Assembly: GCA_021785795.1 (NCBI GenBank) | Contig: JAJYEK010000061.1 | Coordinates: forward strand, 1-19,636 | Reading direction: 5' to 3' | DNA length: 19,636 nt | Source: Pseudomonadota bacterium | Lineage (GTDB): Bacteria > Pseudomonadota > Gammaproteobacteria > Acidiferrobacterales > UBA6901 | Shown here: positions 1,514-15,180 of the stretch, piece by piece | Position numbering within the stretch: the stretch's first letter is position 1 | Layout of the letters: the number at the start of each line of letters is the position of its first letter | The notes under the pieces: model-generated | Told to the model about the DNA's origin: nothing | The model's input: only the letters and a program-made list of their open reading frames with translations | Database searches by the model: none | Program-made: the position numbers and the translations under genes

Positions 1514-1527
1514 TTGATACAAATCAA
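1514..1527 (-). promoter_or_regulatory. Perfect FNR/FixK box TTGAT-ACAA-ATCAA
   Basis: The 14 bases match the FNR/FixK consensus TTGAT-N4-ATCAA at all ten defined positions. The site is palindromic, so orientation is taken from the -10 hexamer TAATGT, correctly spaced only on the leftward side. The rightward side has a GC-rich stretch where a -10 would be needed. The window encodes a matching activator with the E-x-x-S-R recognition-helix motif (gene at 9459). The likely target is the leftward unit of the secreted protein and the glycine-zipper lipoprotein. Confidence 0.65.
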
Positions 1528-2464: not shown

Positions 2465-2821
2465 TCAACCGTGCGCCGGAGACTGGCCTCTTTCGCGACC
2501 GTAGATGGCATCACGCAGCGTCTTCACGTTCTCCAGCTTGAAACCGCTGAACATGAGCCCTGCCCCTTCAGCGCCGATACGCACGACTCGGGCTGGAATG
2601 GGGTGATCCTTCTGCTGCCCGGAATTTCCGAGATGGAGATCGATGTAGAGTCCCTCATTGAGTGAAATCGCCTGCGGGTCTATCTCGACATACATGCCGC
2701 CGAAGCCGAGGTCTCGGCACACCGCCTGCTGCGGCGGCTGCCCATCCGCGTTAAGATTGACTTCGAACTGAACCGCTCGCCGTTCGTTCCAGCGCTGCTC
2801 AACCTGTCTTGCCGTTGTCAT
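2465..2821 (-). CDS. PilZ-domain protein with a degenerate c-di-GMP motif
   Basis: This 118-residue protein is essentially one PilZ domain, a fold that binds cyclic di-GMP and passes the signal to a partner. The first half of the binding signature is present near the N-terminus (RWNERR, containing R-x-x-x-R). The second half, normally (D/N)-x-S-x-x-G, reads DLGFGG, with Gly in place of the Ser. Nucleotide binding could therefore be weakened or lost, although the Arg pair remains. The ATG at 2821 has AGGAG 6 bases upstream and lies inside the preceding PilZ gene (23-base overlap), so the two are translationally coupled. The product is predicted to be cytoplasmic. Confidence 0.8.
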   Translation of the reverse strand: MTTARQVEQRWNERRAVQFEVNLNADGQPPQQAVCRDLGFGGMYVEIDPQAISLNEGLYIDLHLGNSGQQKDHPIPARVVRIGAEGAGLMFSGFKLENVKTLRDAIYGRERGQSPAHG

Positions 2822-3305
2822 GATCTTCTCCTGTCACCGTGTTGTGATCGTCGACCGAATCCGCGGCTGGGACCTCACCCGCTATTGCGGCCTTCCGGCG
2901 GCTCATGGTAGAAAGAAGCGCGCCATGATTGCTGATGTATTCTCCGAAACCGCCATGTGAGTCGGATCTCCGGACCCTGAGCATCGACCCGCTGCTCCGC
3001 AGCAATGCGACGAATCGGGAAATTTTGCCGGCGTCGTGCAGCGCAAACATTAACCCGATGCCCTGTTCGGTCAAGCGCGCCACTTCCGCGGGTATCTGCT
3101 GAGTCCACGTGACGCCATGCGCATGCCGTGTCACCACCAGATCCACCAGCGTTCCTAGATGCAAAGCGGCTTTCCGTCCGGCTACGAAAATTCCGTCGAA
3201 ACTCACATTTTGAGTTTGCCCGCAAACCGGCTTCGCACCACGACCATATATCACGGCTTCACGTTCGATTGGTTCGCGGAATCCCCAGCGGTGATTCATT
3301 CTCAT
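2799..3305 (-). CDS. PilZ-domain protein, intact c-di-GMP motif
   Basis: This 168-residue cytoplasmic protein has an N-terminal PilZ domain (about residues 5-105). Both parts of the c-di-GMP signature are intact: R-x-x-x-R in RWGFR and N-x-S-x-x-G in NVSFDG. After the barrel it has a polar tail of about 60 residues (rich in Ser, Arg, Asp, ending GEDHDNGKTG) with no recognisable domain. AAGGGA lies about 8 bases before the ATG at 3305; a second in-frame ATG at 3299 is also possible. It is the first gene of a leftward PilZ pair diverging from the signalling block to its right, which encodes a diguanylate cyclase. It is therefore a plausible receptor for that enzyme's product. Confidence 0.82.
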   Translation of the reverse strand: MRMNHRWGFREPIEREAVIYGRGAKPVCGQTQNVSFDGIFVAGRKAALHLGTLVDLVVTRHAHGVTWTQQIPAEVARLTEQGIGLMFALHDAGKISRFVALLRSSGSMLRVRRSDSHGGFGEYISNHGALLSTMSRRKAAIAGEVPAADSVDDHNTVTGEDHDNGKTG

Positions 3306-3949: not shown

Positions 3950-5737
3950 ATGAATAGATGGCGGGTCGAATCGCAGATCCTGTTCGCATTTACTCTCGCG
4001 CTCGTAGTGCTCGCGATCGTGGGTGCACTTGTCTATCGCGCGATGTCCGGATTCATCGATACCAGCAAGGCCGCTGCGGCCTCCCGGCAAGCACTCGCGG
4101 CATTCGATGGTATCGATTCATCATTGAATCAGGCCACCGCCCACGAACGCAGCTACCTCATCCTCGGAGACAATGGCGACCTTGCCGCGCGTCAGGCCGC
4201 AGTCACCCGCGTCAACGCGTACCTTGCCGAGCTCGATCGACTTCTGTCCAACGACCCGCAGCAGAATGCGCGGCTGCGCATACTCCGCCATACTATTGCT
4301 GATCGGTTGCTGGTGTTCGAGCAGCCGCCCTCAGGTCGCCTGCGCAGCTTTTCAGCAATCCGCCAGCGGCTCACCCGCGGACCGGGACGCACCTTGATGC
4401 GCCAGATCCGCAACCAGGTGGGCCAGATGGAGCGCGCGGAGATGGCTCGGCTGACCCAGCGGCGGGCGGCGATCGACCGGCACCTGCACGAGACGCTCGC
4501 CACCCTTGCGCTTCTGCTTCTTTTTTCCGCTGCATCCCTGTCACTTTTATATGTCGGTATCCGACGCGAGATTCACGAACGTCTCCAGGCTGAAGCTGCA
4601 TTGAAGAGGCATGCGGAACTCCTGCGTGAGAGCGAGCAGCGCATGCATGCCATCGTCGACACTGCGGCTGAGGCGATCATCGTGATCGACGGGAATGGAA
4701 TCATAGACCGTTTCAATGCTGCTGCTGAACGCACATTCGGCTACAGCGCGACCGAGGTCATCGGAAAAAACGTCTCAGTCCTGATGCCTGACCCGTACCA
4801 CGAACAGCATGACAGCTACATCAGCAACTACCTGCACACCGGCAAGGCGCGTATCATCGGCATGGGGCGCGAGACGGAAGGAAGACGCAAAGACGGTCGC
4901 ATCTTCCCCATAGAGCTTTCTGTGAGCGAGATACGGATTGCAGGAAAGCACTTGTTCACAGGGGTGCTGCGGGACATCAGCCGACGCAGGCAACGGGATC
5001 AGGAGCTTGCCAACACGATGCAGGAACTCCAAAGCAGCAACGAAGAGCTCAAGAACTTCGCCTACATTGTATCGCACGATCTCAAGGCGCCGCTGCGTGC
5101 CATCGGCTCGCTCGCCGACTGGCTTCGTGCCGATTACACCGATCGACTGGACTCCGAAGGCAAGGAGTATCTGCGCCTGCTTGCCGGCCGCGTACGACGC
5201 ATGGATCAGCTCATCGAAGGAATTCTTGAGTACTCGCGCGTTGGCCGTGTCAGGGAGACAAGAGTTTCTGTCGATCTCGATGAGATGATCCACGAGATCC
5301 TGGACCTTCTTTCCCCGCCTCCGCACATTCGCGTCGAAATCGAAGGTCCGCTGCCGGTTCTGACCGCCGAGCCGACACGCATGCGCCAGCTCTTTCAGAA
5401 TCTGATTTCCAATGCCATAAAATATATGGATAAGCCCGAAGGGCTTATCCGCATCGCCGGACAGGCGGCGGATGACGAATGGCGCTTCAGCGTCGCCGAC
5501 AACGGGCCGGGCGTCGAACCCCGGCATCATGAGAAGATTTTTCAACTGTTTCAGACGCTCGCTCCTCGCGACCGCATCGAGGGTACGGGCGTAGGGCTGG
5601 CGCTGGCAAAGAAGATTGTCGAACTTTACGGTGGTCGAATCTGGATCGAATCAACACCCGGCCAGGGAAGCAGCTTCTTCTTTACCTTGCGACAAGCATC
5701 ATCGACACGACTTTCAAATACGGAAGGCGCGCTATGA
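3950..5737 (+). CDS. Membrane histidine kinase with FixL-like haem PAS domain
   Basis: This 595-residue sensor kinase has membrane helices at about 10-29 and 183-205, enclosing a helical CHASE3-like periplasmic region. A PAS domain follows (about 232-345), then HisKA with His376 in VSHDLKAPL and an HATPase domain ending at a GTGVGLALAKKI box. The PAS resembles FixL closely. His287 lies in HDSYISNY, matching the haem-ligating His200 of Bradyrhizobium FixL. Twenty residues on, Arg307 ends IIGMGR, matching the oxygen-contacting Arg220. The transmitter is not FixL-like; it is of the phytochrome/CphA class (SHDLKAPLRAI). ATG 3950 is chosen because it precedes the first helix; ATG 3905 is an alternative. 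The gene overlaps the next by ATGA, so the receiver is its likely phosphorylation partner. Haem binding is inferred from residues only. Confidence 0.88.
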   Translation: MNRWRVESQILFAFTLALVVLAIVGALVYRAMSGFIDTSKAAAASRQALAAFDGIDSSLNQATAHERSYLILGDNGDLAARQAAVTRVNAYLAELDRLLSNDPQQNARLRILRHTIADRLLVFEQPPSGRLRSFSAIRQRLTRGPGRTLMRQIRNQVGQMERAEMARLTQRRAAIDRHLHETLATLALLLLFSAASLSLLYVGIRREIHERLQAEAALKRHAELLRESEQRMHAIVDTAAEAIIVIDGNGIIDRFNAAAERTFGYSATEVIGKNVSVLMPDPYHEQHDSYISNYLHTGKARIIGMGRETEGRRKDGRIFPIELSVSEIRIAGKHLFTGVLRDISRRRQRDQELANTMQELQSSNEELKNFAYIVSHDLKAPLRAIGSLADWLRADYTDRLDSEGKEYLRLLAGRVRRMDQLIEGILEYSRVGRVRETRVSVDLDEMIHEILDLLSPPPHIRVEIEGPLPVLTAEPTRMRQLFQNLISNAIKYMDKPEGLIRIAGQAADDEWRFSVADNGPGVEPRHHEKIFQLFQTLAPRDRIEGTGVGLALAKKIVELYGGRIWIESTPGQGSSFFFTLRQASSTRLSNTEGAL

Positions 5738-6153
5738 AAATAACAAGCAGGCCCATATTGCTGGTCGAAGACGACGATGTCGACTCAATGGCGGTACATC
5801 GTGCATTCAAAGCACTGCACATCACGAACCGCCTGGAACGTGCCGAAAATGGTGAGAAAGCGCTCGCCTACCTGCATGACGACACCAAGGAGCGCCCCTG
5901 TTTGGTCCTTCTCGACATCAACATGCCTGTTATGGGCGGCATAGAGTTTTTGCGGGTGGTCAAGGACGGCAACCACAACCTGAGACGCATCCCGGTGGTC
6001 GTGCTCACGACCTCCGCAGAGCAGCAGGACAAGATCGAGAGTTTCGACCTCGGAGTGGCCGGCTACATGAAGAAGCCCGTGGACTACCAGCAGTTCATCG
6101 AGACCGTGCGCACAATCGACCGCTACTGGACGGTCAGCGAGATGCCGGAGTAG
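5734..6153 (+). CDS. Single-domain response regulator, Rcp1-like
   Basis: A 139-residue stand-alone receiver domain with no output domain. The acidic pocket is in LLVEDDD (residues 9-15), the phosphoacceptor is Asp61 in VLLDINMPVMGG, the switch Thr is in VVLTTSAE, and the conserved Lys is in MKKPVD. The sequence is of the Rcp1 type, the class of small receivers paired with phytochrome-like kinases. That matches the transmitter class of the upstream kinase. Its ATG overlaps that kinase's stop codon (ATGA), with GGAAGG in front. It probably acts as a relay or phosphate sink between the haem-PAS kinase and a later component, but the sequence alone does not identify its target. Confidence 0.9.
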   Translation: MKITSRPILLVEDDDVDSMAVHRAFKALHITNRLERAENGEKALAYLHDDTKERPCLVLLDINMPVMGGIEFLRVVKDGNHNLRRIPVVVLTTSAEQQDKIESFDLGVAGYMKKPVDYQQFIETVRTIDRYWTVSEMPE

Positions 6154-6162
6154 CCAGACCGC

Positions 6163-7680
6163 ATGAGTACGCCAATCGTACGCCTGCTGCTCATAGAGGA
6201 TGACCAGGTAGACCGTCTGGCCTGCCGGCGCGCGCTCAGCCGCCTGACCGATAGCGTCTTCGACATACACGAGACTGATCTGGCCCGGGATGGACTCGCC
6301 TACGCGCGCTCCCATCATCCCGACCTCATTCTGCTTGATTACCGCTTGCCCGATCTGAACGGCGTGGAAGTCCTGTCTGAGCTCCGCATGTTCGAGGACG
6401 CACCTCCGGTGATCATGCTGACCGGTGCCGGAGATATCTCGATCGCGGTCGAAGCCATGCGCTCCGGGGCGCGTGACTACCTCCTCAAGGATACGGCCGG
6501 CGAATACCTGGCGCTGCTGCCCACGGTCATTGAGCGCGCGATGCGGGAGCAGCAGATGCGCACGGAAAAGCGTTGCATGGAAGAGACCCTGCGGCTGGAA
6601 CGGGACTTCATCTCCGCAGTACTTGCCACTGTGGGCGCCGTGGTCATTGTGCTCGATCGCGAAGGGAGGATCGTGCGCATGAACCAGGCCTGCGAAACCA
6701 TATCCGGATACAGTTTCGAGGAAGCACAGGGGAAATTCGTCTGGGACCTGATGCTACCCGCCAAGGAAATCAGTACGGTAAAAAAAGTTTTCGCTCAACT
6801 GCAGGATGGCCTGTTTCCAAACAGCTTCGACAACTGCTGGCGCCACAAGAACGGCTCGGAGCGCCTCATTGCCTGGTCGAATACGGCGCTAACCAACTCT
6901 GCCGGCAAGGTCGAATACGTGATTGCGACCGGACTCGACATTACCGAACGTCGCGCTGCTGAGGAAGCGGCACTTCGCTACCAGGCCGAAATCGAGCGGA
7001 TCTACCGCCAATACGCTCTTGGCGCATTTGCTTCCGTTTTTGCGCATGAACTCAGTCAGCCGCTTGCAGCGATCGTCAGCTACAGTGATGCCAGTCTGCG
7101 GATGATCCGCAACGGTCAGGAGAACGGACAACTCAACCGCAACATCGAGCAGACGGCGCTACAGGCGCAACGTGCTGCACATATCATCCGCGATATAAGA
7201 CACTTTTTGCGTCGTGGCGCGCCTGAGACGTCGGTGGAAGACCTGAACAGCCTCGTTGACAAGGTCGTTTCCCAGGTCGCACCCGAGGCCGAGGCAGCCG
7301 GCATCAACCTGAAACTGGACCCGGGCATCGTACCGAAGGTGCGCGTCGGACGCATCGCGGTCGAGAAAGTGCTGCTCAATCTGCTGCAAAACGCGCTGGA
7401 AGCAGTGCGCGACAGCGATACGCGAAACGGCGCGGTCACTGTGCGCACCCAGACGGATGATGCTGGCTTTGTGCGAATCAGCGTTGCGGACACGGGGCCG
7501 GGCCTCGACCCGGAAGATGCAAAACGGCTGTTCCAGCCTTTTTTTACCACCAAAGCTGAAGGACTCGGCATGGGCCTTGCCATCAGCCGCACCATCGTAG
7601 AGGCTCAAGGGGGCCGGCTGTGGTCCGAAACCGCGCAGGGAGGCGCCATATTTCACTTTACGGTCCCTATAGAACCATGA
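6163..7680 (+). CDS. Hybrid regulator: receiver-PAS-FixL-type histidine kinase
   Basis: This 505-residue soluble protein has its receiver at the N-terminus (about 1-125; Asp59 in LILLDYRLPDLNG, Lys in YLLKDT). A linker helix, a PAS domain (about 150-265) and a kinase core follow. His295 lies in FAHELSQPLAAI and the ATP-binding part contains LLNLLQNALEAV and GLGMGLAISRTI. These kinase motifs are those of FixL (HELNQPLAAI, NLFRNALEAM). The PAS lacks the FixL haem His/Arg pattern. No membrane helices are present. The start is 9 bases after the receiver gene, and the stop overlaps the FixJ-like gene by ATGA, so the FixJ-like protein is its expected substrate. The N-terminal receiver suggests that it takes input from the upstream kinase. 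Confidence 0.9.
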   Translation: MSTPIVRLLLIEDDQVDRLACRRALSRLTDSVFDIHETDLARDGLAYARSHHPDLILLDYRLPDLNGVEVLSELRMFEDAPPVIMLTGAGDISIAVEAMRSGARDYLLKDTAGEYLALLPTVIERAMREQQMRTEKRCMEETLRLERDFISAVLATVGAVVIVLDREGRIVRMNQACETISGYSFEEAQGKFVWDLMLPAKEISTVKKVFAQLQDGLFPNSFDNCWRHKNGSERLIAWSNTALTNSAGKVEYVIATGLDITERRAAEEAALRYQAEIERIYRQYALGAFASVFAHELSQPLAAIVSYSDASLRMIRNGQENGQLNRNIEQTALQAQRAAHIIRDIRHFLRRGAPETSVEDLNSLVDKVVSQVAPEAEAAGINLKLDPGIVPKVRVGRIAVEKVLLNLLQNALEAVRDSDTRNGAVTVRTQTDDAGFVRISVADTGPGLDPEDAKRLFQPFFTTKAEGLGMGLAISRTIVEAQGGRLWSETAQGGAIFHFTVPIEP

Positions 7681-8297
7681 CTCCGACCGTCTTTCTCGTG
7701 GACGACGACGCTGCTGTACGCGATGCGCTCGGCGTCCTGTTCCGTACCGAGGGATTCGCGGTGTGCGCCTATGAAAGCGCCGAGGATTTCCTCGCGACCT
7801 GTCCGCCCGATGTCTGCGGCTGCCTCGTGCTGGACTTGCACATGCCGGGCATGAGTGGCATCGAACTGCAGAAGGCGCTTTCCGAGCAAAATATTTTACT
7901 GCCCGTCATCTTTCTCACGGGGCATGGCGATATTCCCATGTCAGTGCGTGCGCTCAAGGCCGGCGCCGTGGATTTTCTGGAGAAGCCGGCCAACCCGGAT
8001 GTGCTGCTCGCGCGCGTGCGCGACGCGCTTGCGCAGGATTCGCGCCGTCGCACGGTCAGCGCGGAGCAGGCCGCCCTTGGCGCCCTGTACGATCGCCTTA
8101 CCGTGCGCGAGCGCGAAATTCTGATACAGGTCGCGGAAGGAAAAACCAGCAAGGAGATCGCCCGTTCGCTCGGGATCAGCCCGCGAACTGTCGAGGTCCA
8201 TCGCAGCCACATCATGGGAAAACTCGGCGCCGACAGTCTGGCCGATCTGATCAGGATCGGGCAACTCTGCGCCTCCGCCACTTTTCCGGTCCATTAG
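7677..8297 (+). CDS. FixJ-family response regulator (receiver + LuxR-type HTH)
   Basis: This 206-residue transcription factor has a receiver (1-120) with VDDD at 8-11 and the phosphoacceptor Asp53 in LVLDLHMPGMSG. The receiver also has FLTGHGDIPMSV and a FLEKPAN lysine, the FixJ/TodT signature. The LuxR-type helix-turn-helix (about 141-196) contains LTVREREIL and SPRTVEVHRSHIMGKL, nearly the FixJ sequence. The ATG overlaps the stop of the FixL-type kinase gene, which indicates the cognate pair; an upstream in-frame GTG at 7620 is a less likely start. When phosphorylated it should activate target promoters. A GTACGTAG motif that resembles a FixJ site lies 47 bases after this gene, in front of the diguanylate cyclase. 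Confidence 0.92.
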   Translation: MTPTVFLVDDDAAVRDALGVLFRTEGFAVCAYESAEDFLATCPPDVCGCLVLDLHMPGMSGIELQKALSEQNILLPVIFLTGHGDIPMSVRALKAGAVDFLEKPANPDVLLARVRDALAQDSRRRTVSAEQAALGALYDRLTVREREILIQVAEGKTSKEIARSLGISPRTVEVHRSHIMGKLGADSLADLIRIGQLCASATFPVH

Positions 8298-8343
8298 CCG
8301 GGGTTCACCCGAACCGCGTCGCAAATTCGCCGTTTTCCACCCT

Positions 8344-8362
8344 GTACGTAGTTGTCCGTACG
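8344..8362 (+). promoter_or_regulatory. Candidate FixJ-type operator (GTACG inverted repeat)
   Basis: The sequence GTACGTAGTTGTCCGTACG contains GTACG at 8344-8348 and its complement CGTAC at 8357-8361, 8 bases apart. It includes GTACGTAG, which fits the GTAMGTAG pattern that I recall being reported for FixJ binding. It lies just after the FixJ-like gene, 113 bases before the diguanylate cyclase start. AATAAT at 8399-8404 could be the -10. This is a motif match, not proof of binding. Confidence 0.4.
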
Positions 8363-8475
8363 CATTCGCACCGATTACAAAAATGGGCACCGCCGGACAA
8401 TAATCCCCCAAGTCTGCGAGACAACGCGGGCCTTCTCTGGAAATTCCGGGCAGAAAGCCGTTGGTGGAAACCATC

Positions 8476-9372
8476 ATGACCGCAGAGCCAACCAGCACGT
8501 CCGTCTTTACTACGGCAGAGATTTGCGCGACCGTGCTCGAATCCTTGCCAGACCCGGTCATAGTCACCGACTTTACCGGAAAGGTCCTGTATCTGAATTT
8601 CGCGGCGATACGCCTGATCGGCTTGAATCGCGGCAGCGTGCGTGGCCGGATGCTGTCTGACGTCATTACGATCCTGGATGGGGTCACACATAAACGCGTT
8701 TCTGATCCGCTCACACGCTTTATCGCCCGCAGCACCCGCCCCAGACCGAACGAATTCGATCTGCTGCAACAGTGGACGGGGACTGAGATACCGGTGGAGG
8801 ATTCCTGCTCCGTTTTGAGAGGTCCGGACCGTGAGTCGGAAGGAGTGGTTCTGGTGCTGCGCGACGCTACCGGCTTGCGCGAGCTCGCACTCAATGCTAC
8901 ACACGACTCCCTCACCCGTCTCGCCAACCGCCGGGAATTCGAGCGCCGCTTGGAACGCCTGCTTGAAACGCTTCGCGCTGGCGAACAGCATGCACTGCTC
9001 TATATGGATCTGGACCACTTCAAGCTGGTCAATGACACTCACGGACACGCGGCCGGAGATTCCGTCCTGCGCAAAGTAGCCGAAATATTCCGCGCTTCGG
9101 TTCGCGAGCGTGACACGCTCGCCCGTCTCGGCGGTGACGAATTCGCACTTCTTCTCGAGCACTGCCCGATCGACCTGGCCAACGCGCATGCACGCACGCT
9201 TGCGCAGACGCTCGCAGAGCAGAAATTCATTTGGTCCGGAACGAGTTTCCGGCTCGGCGTAAGCATTGGCGCTGTCGCCATTACCGCCGGGAACCATACG
9301 CCGGCTTCCGTGCTCGCCGCCGCGGACCTTGCCTGTTATGCCGCAAAGCGCCACGCCGTCGAACGGCTCTGA
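8476..9372 (+). CDS. PAS-GGDEF diguanylate cyclase
   Basis: This 298-residue cytoplasmic enzyme is predicted to make cyclic di-GMP from two GTP. A PAS domain (about 18-130, including LPDPVIVTDFTGKVLYLNFA) precedes a GGDEF domain (about 140-298). The active site GGDEF is intact at 219-223. The product-inhibition I-site R-x-x-D is also present as RERD at 210-213, exactly five residues before GGDEF, so feedback inhibition is expected. There is no EAL domain. ATG 8476 is preferred over a TTG at 8461, with GGTGGA about 8 bases upstream. The gene lies between the FixJ-like and FNR-like genes and has its own 178-base upstream region with a FixJ-type motif. The PilZ proteins at 2465-3305 are possible receptors. 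Confidence 0.92.
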   Translation: MTAEPTSTSVFTTAEICATVLESLPDPVIVTDFTGKVLYLNFAAIRLIGLNRGSVRGRMLSDVITILDGVTHKRVSDPLTRFIARSTRPRPNEFDLLQQWTGTEIPVEDSCSVLRGPDRESEGVVLVLRDATGLRELALNATHDSLTRLANRREFERRLERLLETLRAGEQHALLYMDLDHFKLVNDTHGHAAGDSVLRKVAEIFRASVRERDTLARLGGDEFALLLEHCPIDLANAHARTLAQTLAEQKFIWSGTSFRLGVSIGAVAITAGNHTPASVLAAADLACYAAKRHAVERL

Positions 9373-9417
9373 GGAGTCGACACGTTGCCGGCCGTGTACG
9401 CGCCTCTACCCGCACTT

Positions 9418-9430
9418 CCGCATGATGCGG
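9418..9430. repeat. Palindrome CCGCAT-G-ATGCGG before the FNR-like gene
   Basis: A perfect 6-base inverted repeat around a single central base lies 28 bases upstream of the FNR-like start codon. It could be an operator or a small hairpin next to the ribosome site. It does not match the FNR consensus. Confidence 0.3.
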
Positions 9431-9458
9431 ATTCTCCAATTCCCTCAAGGAGGTATCG

Positions 9459-10220
9459 ATGAACATTAACCTTGGCAACAGCACTTCCCGCACGACACCT
9501 TTCCTTCCAGTCCGCGGAACACCGGCCATTTCCGCCACTACGCGGGGCACACGCGAATTGCTCATGTCGATTGCAGGGCCACCACGCCGGTACGTGCGCG
9601 GCCAGCACCTGTTCCACGCCGGAGACAGCGACCCAAGTCTGTATGTCGTCGAATCAGGGTCAGTCAAGCTATACGGCATCACCAGCAGCGGCGCCGAGCA
9701 GATCTTCGCATTTTGCCTGCCCGGAGAGTTCTTCGGGCTCGATGTCCTGGGCGAACCCACGCATGGTTCGTCCGCCGGAGTGCTCGAACCCACGACAGTG
9801 CGTGCGTTGCCGGTGCCAGAGATCAGGGCAATGTACCGGCGCATCCCGGCGGTCCAGCAACGTGTCCATCGGCTTCTCGCGCACCGCATAAACGAGCTGT
9901 ACGAGCAGATGATGGTGCTGAGCAAGAAGCACGCCGATGAGCGTCTTGCCGGCTTTCTGCTGGGAATCGACGCACGCCTGCCTGAACCTCAGCGTGCCGC
10001 CCACAGTCTGCGGTTGAGCATGTCGCGCTATGAAATCGGCTGCTACCTCGGACTGGCCCTCGAAACCGTGAGCCGGATTCTGCGGCACTTTGACGACGAG
10101 GGTCTGACGCGCACGCGCGCACGCCACATCCAGTTGTGCGATCTCGAGCGCTTGCGCGCGCTCGCAGGGTTGGCGCTGGGCGGACCGGCCAGGGCGACGC
10201 CGGGCATATTCTTCGCCTAA
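9459..10220 (+). CDS. FNR/FixK-family transcription activator without Fe-S cysteines
   Basis: A 253-residue regulator with a cyclic-nucleotide-like sensor barrel (about 45-145; RGQHLFHAGD, LYVVESGSVKLY, LPGEFFGLDVLG), a dimer helix and a C-terminal winged HTH (about 180-235). The recognition helix contains LETVSRILRHF with Glu202, Ser205 and Arg206, the E-x-x-S-R triad that reads TTGAT half-sites. FNR needs three N-terminal cysteines and one equivalent to Cys122; the N-terminus here has none and the Cys122 position is Arg. It should therefore not sense oxygen through a 4Fe-4S cluster. This is the FixK situation, in which oxygen is sensed upstream by FixL/FixJ. AAGGAGG lies 6 bases before the ATG. 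Two matching boxes occur in the window, at 10440 and 1514. Confidence 0.88.
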   Translation: MNINLGNSTSRTTPFLPVRGTPAISATTRGTRELLMSIAGPPRRYVRGQHLFHAGDSDPSLYVVESGSVKLYGITSSGAEQIFAFCLPGEFFGLDVLGEPTHGSSAGVLEPTTVRALPVPEIRAMYRRIPAVQQRVHRLLAHRINELYEQMMVLSKKHADERLAGFLLGIDARLPEPQRAAHSLRLSMSRYEIGCYLGLALETVSRILRHFDDEGLTRTRARHIQLCDLERLRALAGLALGGPARATPGIFFA

Positions 10221-10439: not shown

Positions 10440-10453
10440 TTGACGCACATCAA
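10440..10453 (+). promoter_or_regulatory. FNR/FixK box TTGAC-GCAC-ATCAA
   Basis: The site matches TTGAT-N4-ATCAA at nine of ten defined positions. Its centre lies between 10446 and 10447. With the -10 hexamer at 10476-10481 the start point is about 10488, which puts the box centre at exactly -41.5, the class II position. The FNR-like regulator gene ends 219 bases upstream and has the matching recognition helix, so it is the likely activator of the leader ORF and the cytochrome b561 gene. Confidence 0.72.
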
Positions 10454-10558: not shown

Positions 10559-11113
10559 ATGAAACGCACAGAAGGCATTCTGGTCTGGGACCCGGAAGTG
10601 CGCCTGTTTCACTGGGTGACCGCCATCTCATTTTTCGTGGCCTACTTTACGGAGGATCTGCTCACGCCCCATGTCTGGGCAGGCTATGTCGTCCTCGCGC
10701 TCGTCATATTCCGGATTCTTTGGGGCTTCATCGGGTCAGAACACGCGCGCTTCCGCGATTTTACGTATCCGCCTTCGGCAGTACTTTCCAACCTGAAGGA
10801 AATTGTGCTTGCGCATCCCCGACGCTATCTCGGACACAGCCCGGCCGGAGGAGCGATGGTTCTGCTGCTGCTTCTGTTTCTTCTGGCGACGACGGTAACG
10901 GGAGTAATGCTATACGGAGCCGGTGAGCATGCCGGGCCGCTGGCCAGCGCCATGAGCGGAATCAGCAAGCGAGCCCTCAAGGAACCCCATGAGCTGCTTG
11001 CAAACGTCACGCTCGCTCTGGTGATGTTGCATATCGTCGGTGTCGTTGCTGCCAGTGTGATGCACAAGGAAAATCTCGCGCGTGCAATGTTGACCGGACG
11101 CAAGTGCCCTTAA
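10559..11113 (+). CDS. Prokaryotic cytochrome b561 family protein
   Basis: A 184-residue inner-membrane protein with four helices (about 18-34, 38-59, 97-119 and 144-168). It carries the histidines expected to bind b-type haem: His18 in RLFHW, His38 in HVWAGY, His144 in HELLANV and His158 in VMLHIVGV. Such proteins pass electrons between the quinone pool and a soluble or membrane partner such as a cytochrome c, and the partner is often encoded next door. None is seen here. GAGAGG lies about 8 bases before the ATG. The upstream FNR-type promoter suggests use under low oxygen, in line with the oxygen-sensing genes just before it. Confidence 0.9.
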   Translation: MKRTEGILVWDPEVRLFHWVTAISFFVAYFTEDLLTPHVWAGYVVLALVIFRILWGFIGSEHARFRDFTYPPSAVLSNLKEIVLAHPRRYLGHSPAGGAMVLLLLLFLLATTVTGVMLYGAGEHAGPLASAMSGISKRALKEPHELLANVTLALVMLHIVGVVAASVMHKENLARAMLTGRKCP

Positions 11114-12891: not shown

Positions 12892-13782
12892 TACACATTC
12901 CCTCCTTATTTTGCTCGGCGCTCCGCGGCGGACGCTGCCGGCTGTCGTCACGCACCTGAAGCCATCCCCGGCCGCACCCGGAGCAGAGCCAGACTTTAAT
13001 AAAGACCCAGCTCGCGCCGACCGGCATCTTCACCGACCGGTAGTTCATCGGCGGCGCTGACACAAACCAGGATGCGCCCGGAAAATGATATCCCAAACCT
13101 GTCCGTGGCCAGATATCGGGCGCGAGTGGCATTCCCATTATCGGGAACCTGAATCCCGTACATTCCCTGGTGTCTTCGCATTTACTTTGAGGATTGGCCC
13201 ATCGCAAACATCAAGAACCCGCCCTTCCCCGTTATCATTTACTCCGGCCCCGGAGACGGCGGTATGCACACGCACACGGGCCAAACTGACAGCTGCAACG
13301 GCATTTACAGATCGCGCCAGTCCTTCGTCAACTGGCGGTCGACGGCGACCCAACTGGGTCTCATCTCGGCGCGTGACGGTTCAAGGTCAGGAGCACGCCG
13401 GACTGGCCGTGGCCGGCTTTATGATTCATGCCAGAGGACTGATTTGTCCCCGCCCGGTTGGAATCGAAGACAACCCCTCGCGAATCTGCCTCATCCGCAT
13501 CCGGTGCGCCCGGGCCGAGGCACCAGCTCCGCCTGGAACCGATGCCGAAACAGGGCCACTTCGCCTCCTCGTCCGGCTTACACTGAATCCAGAATGCTAA
13601 TGTTTTCCGTGCCGCATCCGATAACTCGAAAGAAGACTCGGACGCTGGAACGCTCCCGGCCTGGCAAGCGAGAACAGACCCACGGAACGGACGACTGCCA
13701 TCGCTGTTGCAAGGCCAGTACGGGCCAGTTTGTTTTTTCCGCAAGTCGGCGGCGGTGCAGGCAGCAATACGGAGGCAATCAC
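12892..13782. other. Long divergent intergenic region, 891 bases
   Basis: This region lies between the leftward BNR gene and the rightward chemoreceptor. Several ORFs cross it in both directions (for example 13085-13600 plus and 13361-13840 minus). They lack ribosome sites, are rich in Arg, Pro and Ser, and resemble no protein family. An AT patch (TTTAATAAAG, 12996-13005) about 105 bases before the BNR start may be part of its promoter. A short palindrome TCCGG-CC-CCGGA lies at 13243-13254. I see no RNA gene or mobile-element end. Confidence 0.5.
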
Positions 13783-15180
13783 GTGGCCCAGCCATTTTTC
13801 CTGAGAACCAGTCTCGCGCTCTCTCTCCTGCAGGCAGCATTCGCCGCCGACCGTGACGCGGTCCTGAAGTTCTTGCAACGTCCCTCAGCTACGGCGGCGG
13901 GTCTTTCCCCGATTCTCGGGATCATCGATGCGCGCAATGCAAGCCTTATCGAGTCCGCCCAGCAATCCGTGTCGGCGCTCAATCAGGGCGTGTCAGTACT
14001 GATCAAAACCGTCGCGTTTACCCGTGAAATCGATACTTCCCTGGACCAGGTCACGAGTGTCGCCGCAGCGGTCGAGGAGATGGCGAATACCGCCACCGAA
14101 ATTTCGAAAAACGCACAGGAGGCCGCCGCTCGTGCCGACGAAAGCCGTGCCAAATGCGCAGCGGGCGACTCGTCCGTCAAGCTGCTTACCGAGGACATGA
14201 ATCTCCTGGGACAGGCCGTATCCTCAATGGGCTCGAACATGAAGGAGTTTCTCGATTTCAACCAGAGGATCGGGAAGCTGACCAGCAGTGTGCGAGACAT
14301 CGCACGGCAGACAAACCTGCTCGCACTCAATGCGGCGATCGAGGCGGCGCGTGCCGGGGATGCAGGCCGGGGCTTTGCTGTGGTCGCGGACGAAGTAAAA
14401 AAACTGGCCGAAAAGACGACGCTCGCGACCGGGGAAATAGAGTCCGTGACGGCCACCATGAACGAGCTTATCTCCAAGGCTGACGAATCGCTCCTGACGA
14501 GTCTTGCGCGGCTTAGCAAAAGTGTAGGCGCCCTTGAAACAGTCGCTGGCGCGCTCGGTGAAAGTGCGCACGTCGCCCAGGACGTCAATGACCGTGTCCA
14601 CCAAATCGCGGCAGCTGCTGAGGAGCAAAGTTCGGTTTCCGCCGAAATGGCCCGCAGCCTTTCCGAGATCACCGCCTCACTGCAGCGCGAAGGCGTCGAT
14701 GTGGAGCAGATCAATGATCTCGTGCGCTCCGTCAACGCAACGATGGGACGTCAGCTTTTCACCATTTCGCAGCAGGGTCCGGAGAAGGTCTTCTTCGAAT
14801 CGGTCAAGGCCGACCATCTTCTTTGGAAGGCGCGCCTTGCGGATGTCGTGCACGGAGACGCCGACATGAAGGCGTCGGAACTTGTCGATCACACACAATG
14901 TGGACTCGGCCGCTGGTATTACGGCGAGGGCAGGACGCGCTTCGCTGACCTGCGTGCCTTTAGCGAGCTGGAAGCAGTGCATGCGCGCACACACGCTATC
15001 GGCCGCGAGATCGCAAAATCCCGCGGTAACGCGTCGCGCGATGTGATGCTTGATCTGTACCGGGAACTGGAATCCGAGAGCCAGCGCCTGTTCGCGCTGA
15101 TCGATCAGCTCAGCAGCGCCTCTGCCCGCCACGCTGCCGGCACACCCGCTCAGACAGGCATCGTTCTTGCCGGAACCTGA
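13783..15180 (+). CDS. Soluble chemoreceptor (MCP) with C-terminal zinc-binding CZB domain
   Basis: A 465-residue protein with no membrane helix. The GTG start at 13783 has GGAGG 7 bases upstream; the open frame further upstream is low-quality and not included. After a short helical N-terminus comes a long coiled-coil signalling domain with the canonical hairpin tip [20 protein letters not shown] and [11 protein letters not shown] (about 173-205), which contacts CheA and CheW. The C-terminal CZB domain has all four zinc ligands: His345 in HLLW, Cys373 in CGLGRW, and His400 and His404 in HARTH, at the family's spacing. CZB domains sense zinc or zinc-thiol oxidation. The layout resembles Helicobacter TlpD. 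No che genes are nearby, so it must act through an array encoded elsewhere. Confidence 0.9.

Follow-up and report, generated by a model that had tools for sequence, protein, structure and literature searches.

The window analyzed here, a stretch of 19,636 nucleotides (contig JAJYEK010000061.1, assembly GCA_021785795.1) from a gammaproteobacterium of the order Acidiferrobacterales, carries on its forward strand a cassette of six genes that resembles the FixL-FixJ-FixK oxygen circuit. In order, they encode a membrane histidine kinase (HK1; 3950–5737), a single receiver (RRa; 5734–6153), a receiver-PAS-kinase protein (HYB; 6163–7680), a FixJ-like response regulator (7677–8297), a diguanylate cyclase (DGC; 8461–9372) and an FNR/FixK-like regulator (9459–10220). 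A predicted FixJ-binding site (FixJ box; 8344–8362, forward strand) precedes the last two genes. A preliminary description of this DNA named the other five genes but omitted that of the DGC between the FixJ-like and FNR-like genes, and it proposed that the oxygen sensor had been split from a FixL-type transmitter. FixL itself, in which one protein serves as both oxygen sensor and kinase, is the textbook example. A literature search of open-licence PMC papers found no paper on this cassette. What kind of circuit, then, might such an arrangement constitute?

By Pfam, HK1 has the order CHASE3-PAS-HisKA-HATPase, and its start codon (ATG, 3950) is kept in relatives. The best structural match of its PAS domain was the haem PAS of FixL (1dp6, E 1.5e-34), followed by DosP (1.2e-16). 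Both the proximal histidine and the distal arginine of the FixL haem PAS are present, as His287 (codon 4808–4810) and Arg307 (codon 4868–4870); the phospho-accepting residue is His376 (codon 5075–5077). The transmitter is of the phytochrome class, its first matches being bacteriophytochrome kinases. Both halves of HK1 are thus as first described. RRa comprises one receiver by Pfam and matched RcpB, Rcp1 and RcpA at E-values of 4e-19 to 5e-18; it may be called Rcp1-like, as before, with the proviso that five other receivers ranked ahead of these.

HYB (REC-PAS-HisKA-HATPase by Pfam) bears a receiver aspartate, Asp59 (codon 6337–6339), and a kinase histidine, His295 (codon 7045–7047); these residues and Lys109 were invariant in 30 aligned homologues, which were picked from 120 listed and of which 14 had no PAS domain. 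A homologue 77% identical to it is labelled Acidiferrobacterales. Residues 3–504 of HYB align with residues 441–970 of StyS from Pseudomonas sp. VLB120 (27% identity). The domain order given in the preliminary description holds, and FixL chimera structures were indeed the first matches of the transmitter (E 2e-50); the term “FixL-type,” however, is imprecise, as the class also covers the transmitters of TodS and StyS.

The gene for the FixJ-like protein adjoins that of HYB, as had been noted. The protein (receiver plus GerE by Pfam) is a regulator of the FixJ/StyR class, as the preliminary description had implied; its best-scoring curated family was FixJ (NF006900), at 217.6 bits against a cut-off of 255. 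It is 48% identical to StyR, and its top structure match was 1yio (“response regulatory protein”), which we take to be StyR, ahead of FixJ (5xso). Nonetheless, we rejected its assignment as a StyR/TodT regulator: its recognition helix, ISPRTVEVHR in the window and in four related genomes (G002–G005), is nearer to that of FixJ (ISPRTIEVYR in 5xso) than to that of StyR (IAEVTVKVHR), and the DNA site described below is FixJ-like. This type of helix is not unique to the cassette; the regulator of G579, with no box beside it, has ISQRTVEIHR.

The preliminary description had set conservation of the gene order as a check, and the order proved not to be peculiar to this strain. It is kept in all five genomes of the same genus searched with tblastn (G001–G005; in G002, the contig ends inside the FNR gene), and in all five both PilZ genes adjoin the cassette in the same order. 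The nearest genome, G001, shares 94% of sampled words with the window; because it is nearly identical, independent support amounts to the four more diverged genomes (G002–G005), in which RRa is 80–97% identical to that of the window. Such retention indicates that the arrangement is more than chance. Two other genera of the same family (G006, G007) gave no HYB match at E 1e-30 with seven candidates scored in each. HK1 searches of 369 genomes of the class, under strict limits and with at most three candidates scored per genome, yielded three and seven genomes (G001 included), and searches of plasmid records with HK1 and HYB returned only matches below 60% identity. The sole finding outside the genus was in another family (G388), where the four-gene core HK-RRa-HYB-FixJ occurs in the same order, with a kinase transmitter 62% and an RRa 70% identical to those of the window. 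The first kinase of G388 has a HAMP domain and matches Cache weakly (one model scores under its cut-off, another just at it); a PAS domain was not found in it with Pfam. Contigs of the same size in the homologue lists of both kinases (P0134/P0022, 104288; P0170/P0043, 46297; P0136/P0010, 6607) suggest that more HK1/HYB-type pairs may exist.

The strongest new evidence lies on the output side, in the putative FixJ box before the DGC-FNR genes. Consensus sites for FixJ from systematic evolution of ligands by exponential enrichment are given as GTAGTTTCCC and GTAMGTAG in PMC4999443, and PMC13327599 describes strong binding of FixJ to a fixK promoter carrying GTACGTAG. In the window, GTACGTAG at 8344 is the only GTAMGTAG on either strand; it lies within TACGTAG-N5-CGTACG (8345–8362). 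The pattern TACGTAG-N5-CGTACGCA is present in the fixJ-DGC gap of the window and of G002–G005, most of the gap having diverged, and the G003 site also holds GTAGTTTCCC. When whole genomes were scanned, TACGTAG-N5-CGTACG occurred at one exact place in each of G001–G005, always in this gap. A FixJ-type site stands before the fixK-like gene in all five genus genomes, with the 18-base pattern exact in each; at the level of sequence, this supports the FixJ-to-FixK-like link drawn in the preliminary description.

Sites of this kind also accompany related regulators elsewhere. In G018, from another family, the 18-base pattern has a single exact copy; it follows, at a distance of 17 bases, a fixJ-like gene with 61% identity to that of the window and precedes a YeiH-like gene that scores over the cut-off for PF03601 and below that for TIGR00698. 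At a locus of the same genome (L193), some 15 kb hold three pairs of kinase and FixJ-like genes, an FNR-like gene and two PilZ-like genes. In G047, a two-mismatch site follows the fixJ-like gene. A local scan around the G388 locus revealed a one-mismatch site between the fixJ-like gene and rpoS, the latter scoring above two curated cut-offs for RpoS; this box-like site, just before rpoS (L190:1803–2915), suggests a possible two-component route to RpoS in that organism.

On the input side, we surveyed RRa-like receivers in the 369 genomes (E 1e-28, with no more than 11 candidates scored per genome) and obtained 16 places in 15 genomes; neighbors were assigned with Pfam at a few of the loci and, at the others, from blastp matches and motifs. 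The commonest third protein was REC-GGDEF-EAL, which accompanied a histidine kinase and RRa at eight of the 16 loci (G382, G109, G341, G365, G304, G138, G332, G157). The arrangement HK-RRa-REC/PAS/kinase-FixJ was found at two (G001, G388), and a related REC-kinase in a different arrangement at another two (G134, and G247, where a contig end cuts the locus). Two more had HK-RRa with another third protein or none (G225, REC-PAS-PAS; G238), and at the remaining two, on short contigs, no histidine kinase was seen beside RRa (G235 and the other of the two G109 places). The third protein of the G225 module (L136:6333–7643) has no Pfam output domain. G001 itself has a second set of histidine kinase, RRa-like receiver and REC-GGDEF-EAL genes (L128:5629–9506), about 3.4 kb past a CopD-like gene: a cyclic di-GMP (c-di-GMP) counterpart of this front end.

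Among the loci with visible neighbors, the receiver of HYB is nearest to those of such modules. Its identity to the corresponding receivers of G388, G225 and G382 is 58%, 56% and 54%, respectively, and it is 24–32% for six of seven comparators seen without HK1 or RRa beside them (G045, G047, L001, G579, StyS and a TodS-like protein). For the REC-kinases of G134 and G332 the figures are 42% and 40%; database proteins whose neighborhood is unknown stand at 53–63%. The transmitters served as a control: those of G388, G045 and G047 are about equally distant from that of HYB (41%, 44% and 41%), and the matching receivers are 58, 31 and 30% identical. The receiver pattern is therefore not mere relatedness. 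In the alignment, moreover, the first helix of the HYB receiver is nearer to that of RRa than to that of FixJ. Together, these sequence comparisons point to HK1, without proving it, as the probable partner of both RRa and the HYB receiver. Phosphate passing through RRa to HYB, one of the routes in the preliminary description, is not supported. Transfer from receiver to receiver would run from aspartate to aspartate with no histidine carrier between, and we rejected RRa as an in-line carrier on that account; it is more likely a side branch, serving as a parallel target or a phosphate sink.

These observations lead us to propose, with moderate confidence, that the cassette is a FixJ-FixK-type switch in which HYB itself lacks a FixL-type oxygen sensor and is controlled through its N-terminal receiver by the separate kinase HK1. 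In this scheme, HK1 would probably sense oxygen through its FixL-class haem PAS and would phosphorylate two receivers in parallel, RRa (as side branch or sink) and that of HYB. Phosphorylation of the latter would change the output of the HYB transmitter, either allosterically or through a relay from Asp to His, and HYB would in turn phosphorylate the FixJ-like protein. The regulator would then bind the FixJ box and switch on the genes for the DGC and the FNR/FixK-like regulator, which may act on a cytochrome b561 gene and on other genes with FNR-type sites. The domains, catalytic residues, gene order, FixJ box and receiver kinship are matters of sequence record; haem binding, oxygen as the signal, each phosphotransfer, the targets, and the sign and direction of regulation we infer.

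The two forms of this proposal differ in what the HYB receiver does. We judge the chances about even that it is an allosteric gate, in which the phosphorylated receiver alters the autokinase activity of HYB and the phosphate for the FixJ-like protein comes from HYB’s own ATP. The complete HATPase domain of HYB speaks for this form and against the relay. LvrB sets a precedent: according to PMC5863495, its autokinase activity rises with LvrA unless the receiver aspartate is changed. The third proteins of the eight GGDEF-EAL loci, in which no transmitter was seen, likewise suggest that the receiver may gate an output rather than relay phosphate. The other form, proposed in the preliminary description, is a His-Asp-His-Asp phosphorelay from HK1 to the HYB receiver, thence to His295 and the FixJ-like protein. 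It draws on the alignment of the REC-PAS-kinase half of StyS with HYB, such that the StyS domain order would here be split over two proteins, on the kinship of the FixJ-like protein with StyR, and on TodS, for which a His-Asp-His-Asp relay is described in PMC4321377; StyS is built like TodS, which speaks against gating. The receivers of HYB and StyS, on the other hand, are only 24% identical. We regard the relay as possible, if somewhat doubtful; the GGDEF-EAL cousins tilt the balance slightly toward gating.

Could HK1 and HYB instead be independent neighbors, with HK1-RRa signaling elsewhere and HYB-FixJ driven by another kinase? In G045 and G047, HYB-like kinases adjoin genes for FixJ-like, FNR and PilZ proteins without HK1 or RRa, albeit on short contigs. 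Against this, the order is kept throughout the genus, the core recurs in G388, and the HYB receiver resembles those of the HK-RRa modules and not those of G045 and G047. We consider independence of the two systems very unlikely.

The role of oxygen is less secure. Among the best 120 of 3381 HK1 homologues, the haem histidine is present in 119 and the distal arginine in 116, with both in 116. These counts, together with FixL as the first structural match, disfavor the alternative that the PAS domain has a different ligand or a purely structural role, CHASE3 being the true sensor. Within the genus, however, HK1 of G002 has lost the histidine-bearing stretch and has cysteine in place of the arginine (its PAS and transmitter are 54% and 73% identical to those of the window), and that of G003 has tryptophan for the arginine; both genomes keep the cassette. 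Two of the four exceptions among the homologues match G002 and G003 in the haem stretch. As the residues are lost or changed in two of five genus genomes and the first kinase of G388 showed no PAS domain, oxygen is not a fixed input. We find it unlikely that HK1 of the window is not an oxygen sensor. Of the preliminary claim of oxygen sensing, the FixL-like haem PAS in the first kinase is supported by sequence.

Several findings weigh against our proposal and must be set beside it. The losses in G002 and G003 argue against oxygen sensing as essential to the cassette across the genus, and at the G045 and G047 loci, on short contigs, HYB-like kinases sit in similar company without HK1 or RRa. 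Scores fell below the curated cut-offs for FixL (NF041777, cut-off 850; HK1 205.6 bits, HYB 214.7 bits) and for FixK (NF050806, cut-off 300; FNR-like protein 100.2 bits), as for FixJ (NF006900) above. As to the box, GTAMGTAG begins with C rather than G in G005 and G002, and the regulators of G045 and G579, like StyR, had no box site beside them. When up to two mismatches are allowed, the pattern turns up less often than its reversed control (20 vs. 128 places in G001); weight can therefore be given only to sites that match exactly or nearly so at a kept place. Finally, the receiver of G764, with no HK-RRa beside it, is 41% identical to that of HYB, and receivers of more distant HK-RRa modules are only 30–47% identical.

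Downstream, the DGC (PAS-GGDEF by Pfam) retains intact GGDEF and RxxD motifs in the window and in G002–G005. The FNR/FixK-like protein (cNMP-binding domain and Crp-type helix by Pfam) contains ETVSR, which we take to be an FNR-type recognition helix, and its only cysteines are at positions 86, 195 and 227. It therefore has no N-terminal Fe-S set, as the preliminary description had stated, and combines the two traits of FixK, an FNR-type helix and the absence of N-terminal Fe-S cysteines; against Fnr (NF008365), it scored 144 bits, with a cut-off of 228. Its targets are harder to specify. A cytochrome b561 gene (10559–11113, forward strand, by Pfam) lies beside it and is a possible target: an FNR/FixK-like site, TTGACGCACATCAA (10440–10453, forward strand), precedes the gene and is identical in G004. 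The gene is beside FNR in the window, G001 and G004; it was not found beside FNR in G005, nor within the 0.9 kb available in G003. FNR-type sites in the window (at most two mismatches) are at chance, with six found and 5.6 expected, and each of G001–G005 has at least one FNR paralogue with N-terminal cysteines (at least two in G001, G002 and G005). Because of these paralogues the sites cannot be assigned, and we rejected them as evidence for the FNR-like protein of the cassette. We likewise rejected cbb3 oxidase as a FixK target, there being no ccoN match over the cut-off in G001–G005 and one in G007. Exact FNR-type sites do lie 2.2–2.5 kb from weakly ccoN-like genes, below the cut-off, in G001 (C4:112933 and C17:86103), and similar pairs occur in G002–G005. 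An exact FNR-type site, TTGATACAAATCAA, also stands outside the cassette (window 1514–1527) and is exact in G001 (C2:59933–59946) and G004 (C66:168775–168788).

Elsewhere in the window, two divergent PilZ-type genes (2465–3305, reverse strand), one just under the Pfam cut-off, lie upstream of the cassette, and a chemoreceptor with a C-terminal zinc-binding CZB domain is encoded at 13264–15180. Scans of the window with Rfam (gathering threshold) and for tRNAs gave no matches, and counts of promoter-like and terminator-like sequences showed no excess over chance.

How does the cassette compare with known systems? It has several features in common with the FixL-FixJ-FixK systems of rhizobia and of Rhodopseudomonas: a FixL-class haem PAS and transmitter, a FixJ-class regulator and GTACGTAG before an FNR/FixK-like gene. 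It differs in placing the haem PAS (HK1) and the FixL-class transmitter (HYB) on two proteins rather than one, in its two extra receivers, in the phytochrome-class transmitter on the haem kinase, in the inserted DGC gene and in its scores below curated cut-offs. The receiver kinship, the REC-GGDEF-EAL cousins and the G388 core without a haem PAS suggest that a FixLJ output attached to an HK-RRa-REC front end that already existed describes the circuit better than the split FixL first put forward. The front end has its own relatives in the HK / Rcp1-like receiver / REC-GGDEF-EAL modules found here, for which we know of no name. They have an HDLKAPLR kinase, an RRa-like receiver and a REC domain on the third protein; their output is GGDEF-EAL, whereas here it is a FixL-class transmitter with FixJ. 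It is conceivable, at somewhat under an even chance, that these represent a general plug-in class in which sensors (haem PAS, Cache-like, others) and outputs (GGDEF-EAL or FixL-class transmitter with FixJ) are freely swapped, giving in this case a receiver-controlled FixJ-FixK oxygen switch tied to c-di-GMP by the DGC in the FixJ target operon.

If our proposal is true, oxygen sensing on a separate kinase, in a system that retains FixJ along with both its DNA site and a target of FixK type, would show how signaling circuits are rewired through receivers, and the cassette lends itself to testing whether receivers of this kind pass phosphate on or act as the gate of a kinase. Precedents that work like it are already known in TodS/TodT and LvrA/LvrB. 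In LvrA/LvrB of Leptospira, an upstream kinase phosphorylates a REC-kinase protein, although LvrB has no PAS domain and its DNA-binding partner is only predicted (PMC5863495, which also names KipF/PakF). The score against the LvrB family (NF047466) was 113.4 bits, below the cut-off of 500. We know of no FixJ box link for LvrA/LvrB. The route from FixL to FixK has also been rewired in Rhizobium etli, where a hybrid FixL and FxkR replace FixLJ in the hFixL-FxkR-FixKf pathway (PMC4999443); here, by contrast, FixJ is kept and the sensor moved. TodS/TodT and StyS/StyR likewise combine a first kinase, a REC-PAS-second kinase portion and a FixJ-class regulator, and HYB aligns over nearly its whole length with StyS. 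In those systems, however, PAS-HK-REC-PAS-HK is one protein, where here it is split over HK1 and HYB; no separate RRa adjoins them, and the recognition helix of StyR differs. The ligands of TodS are aromatic, according to PMC4321377. By domain, score and alignment tests, then, the cassette belongs neither to TodS/TodT nor to FixLJ-K, though it works like both.

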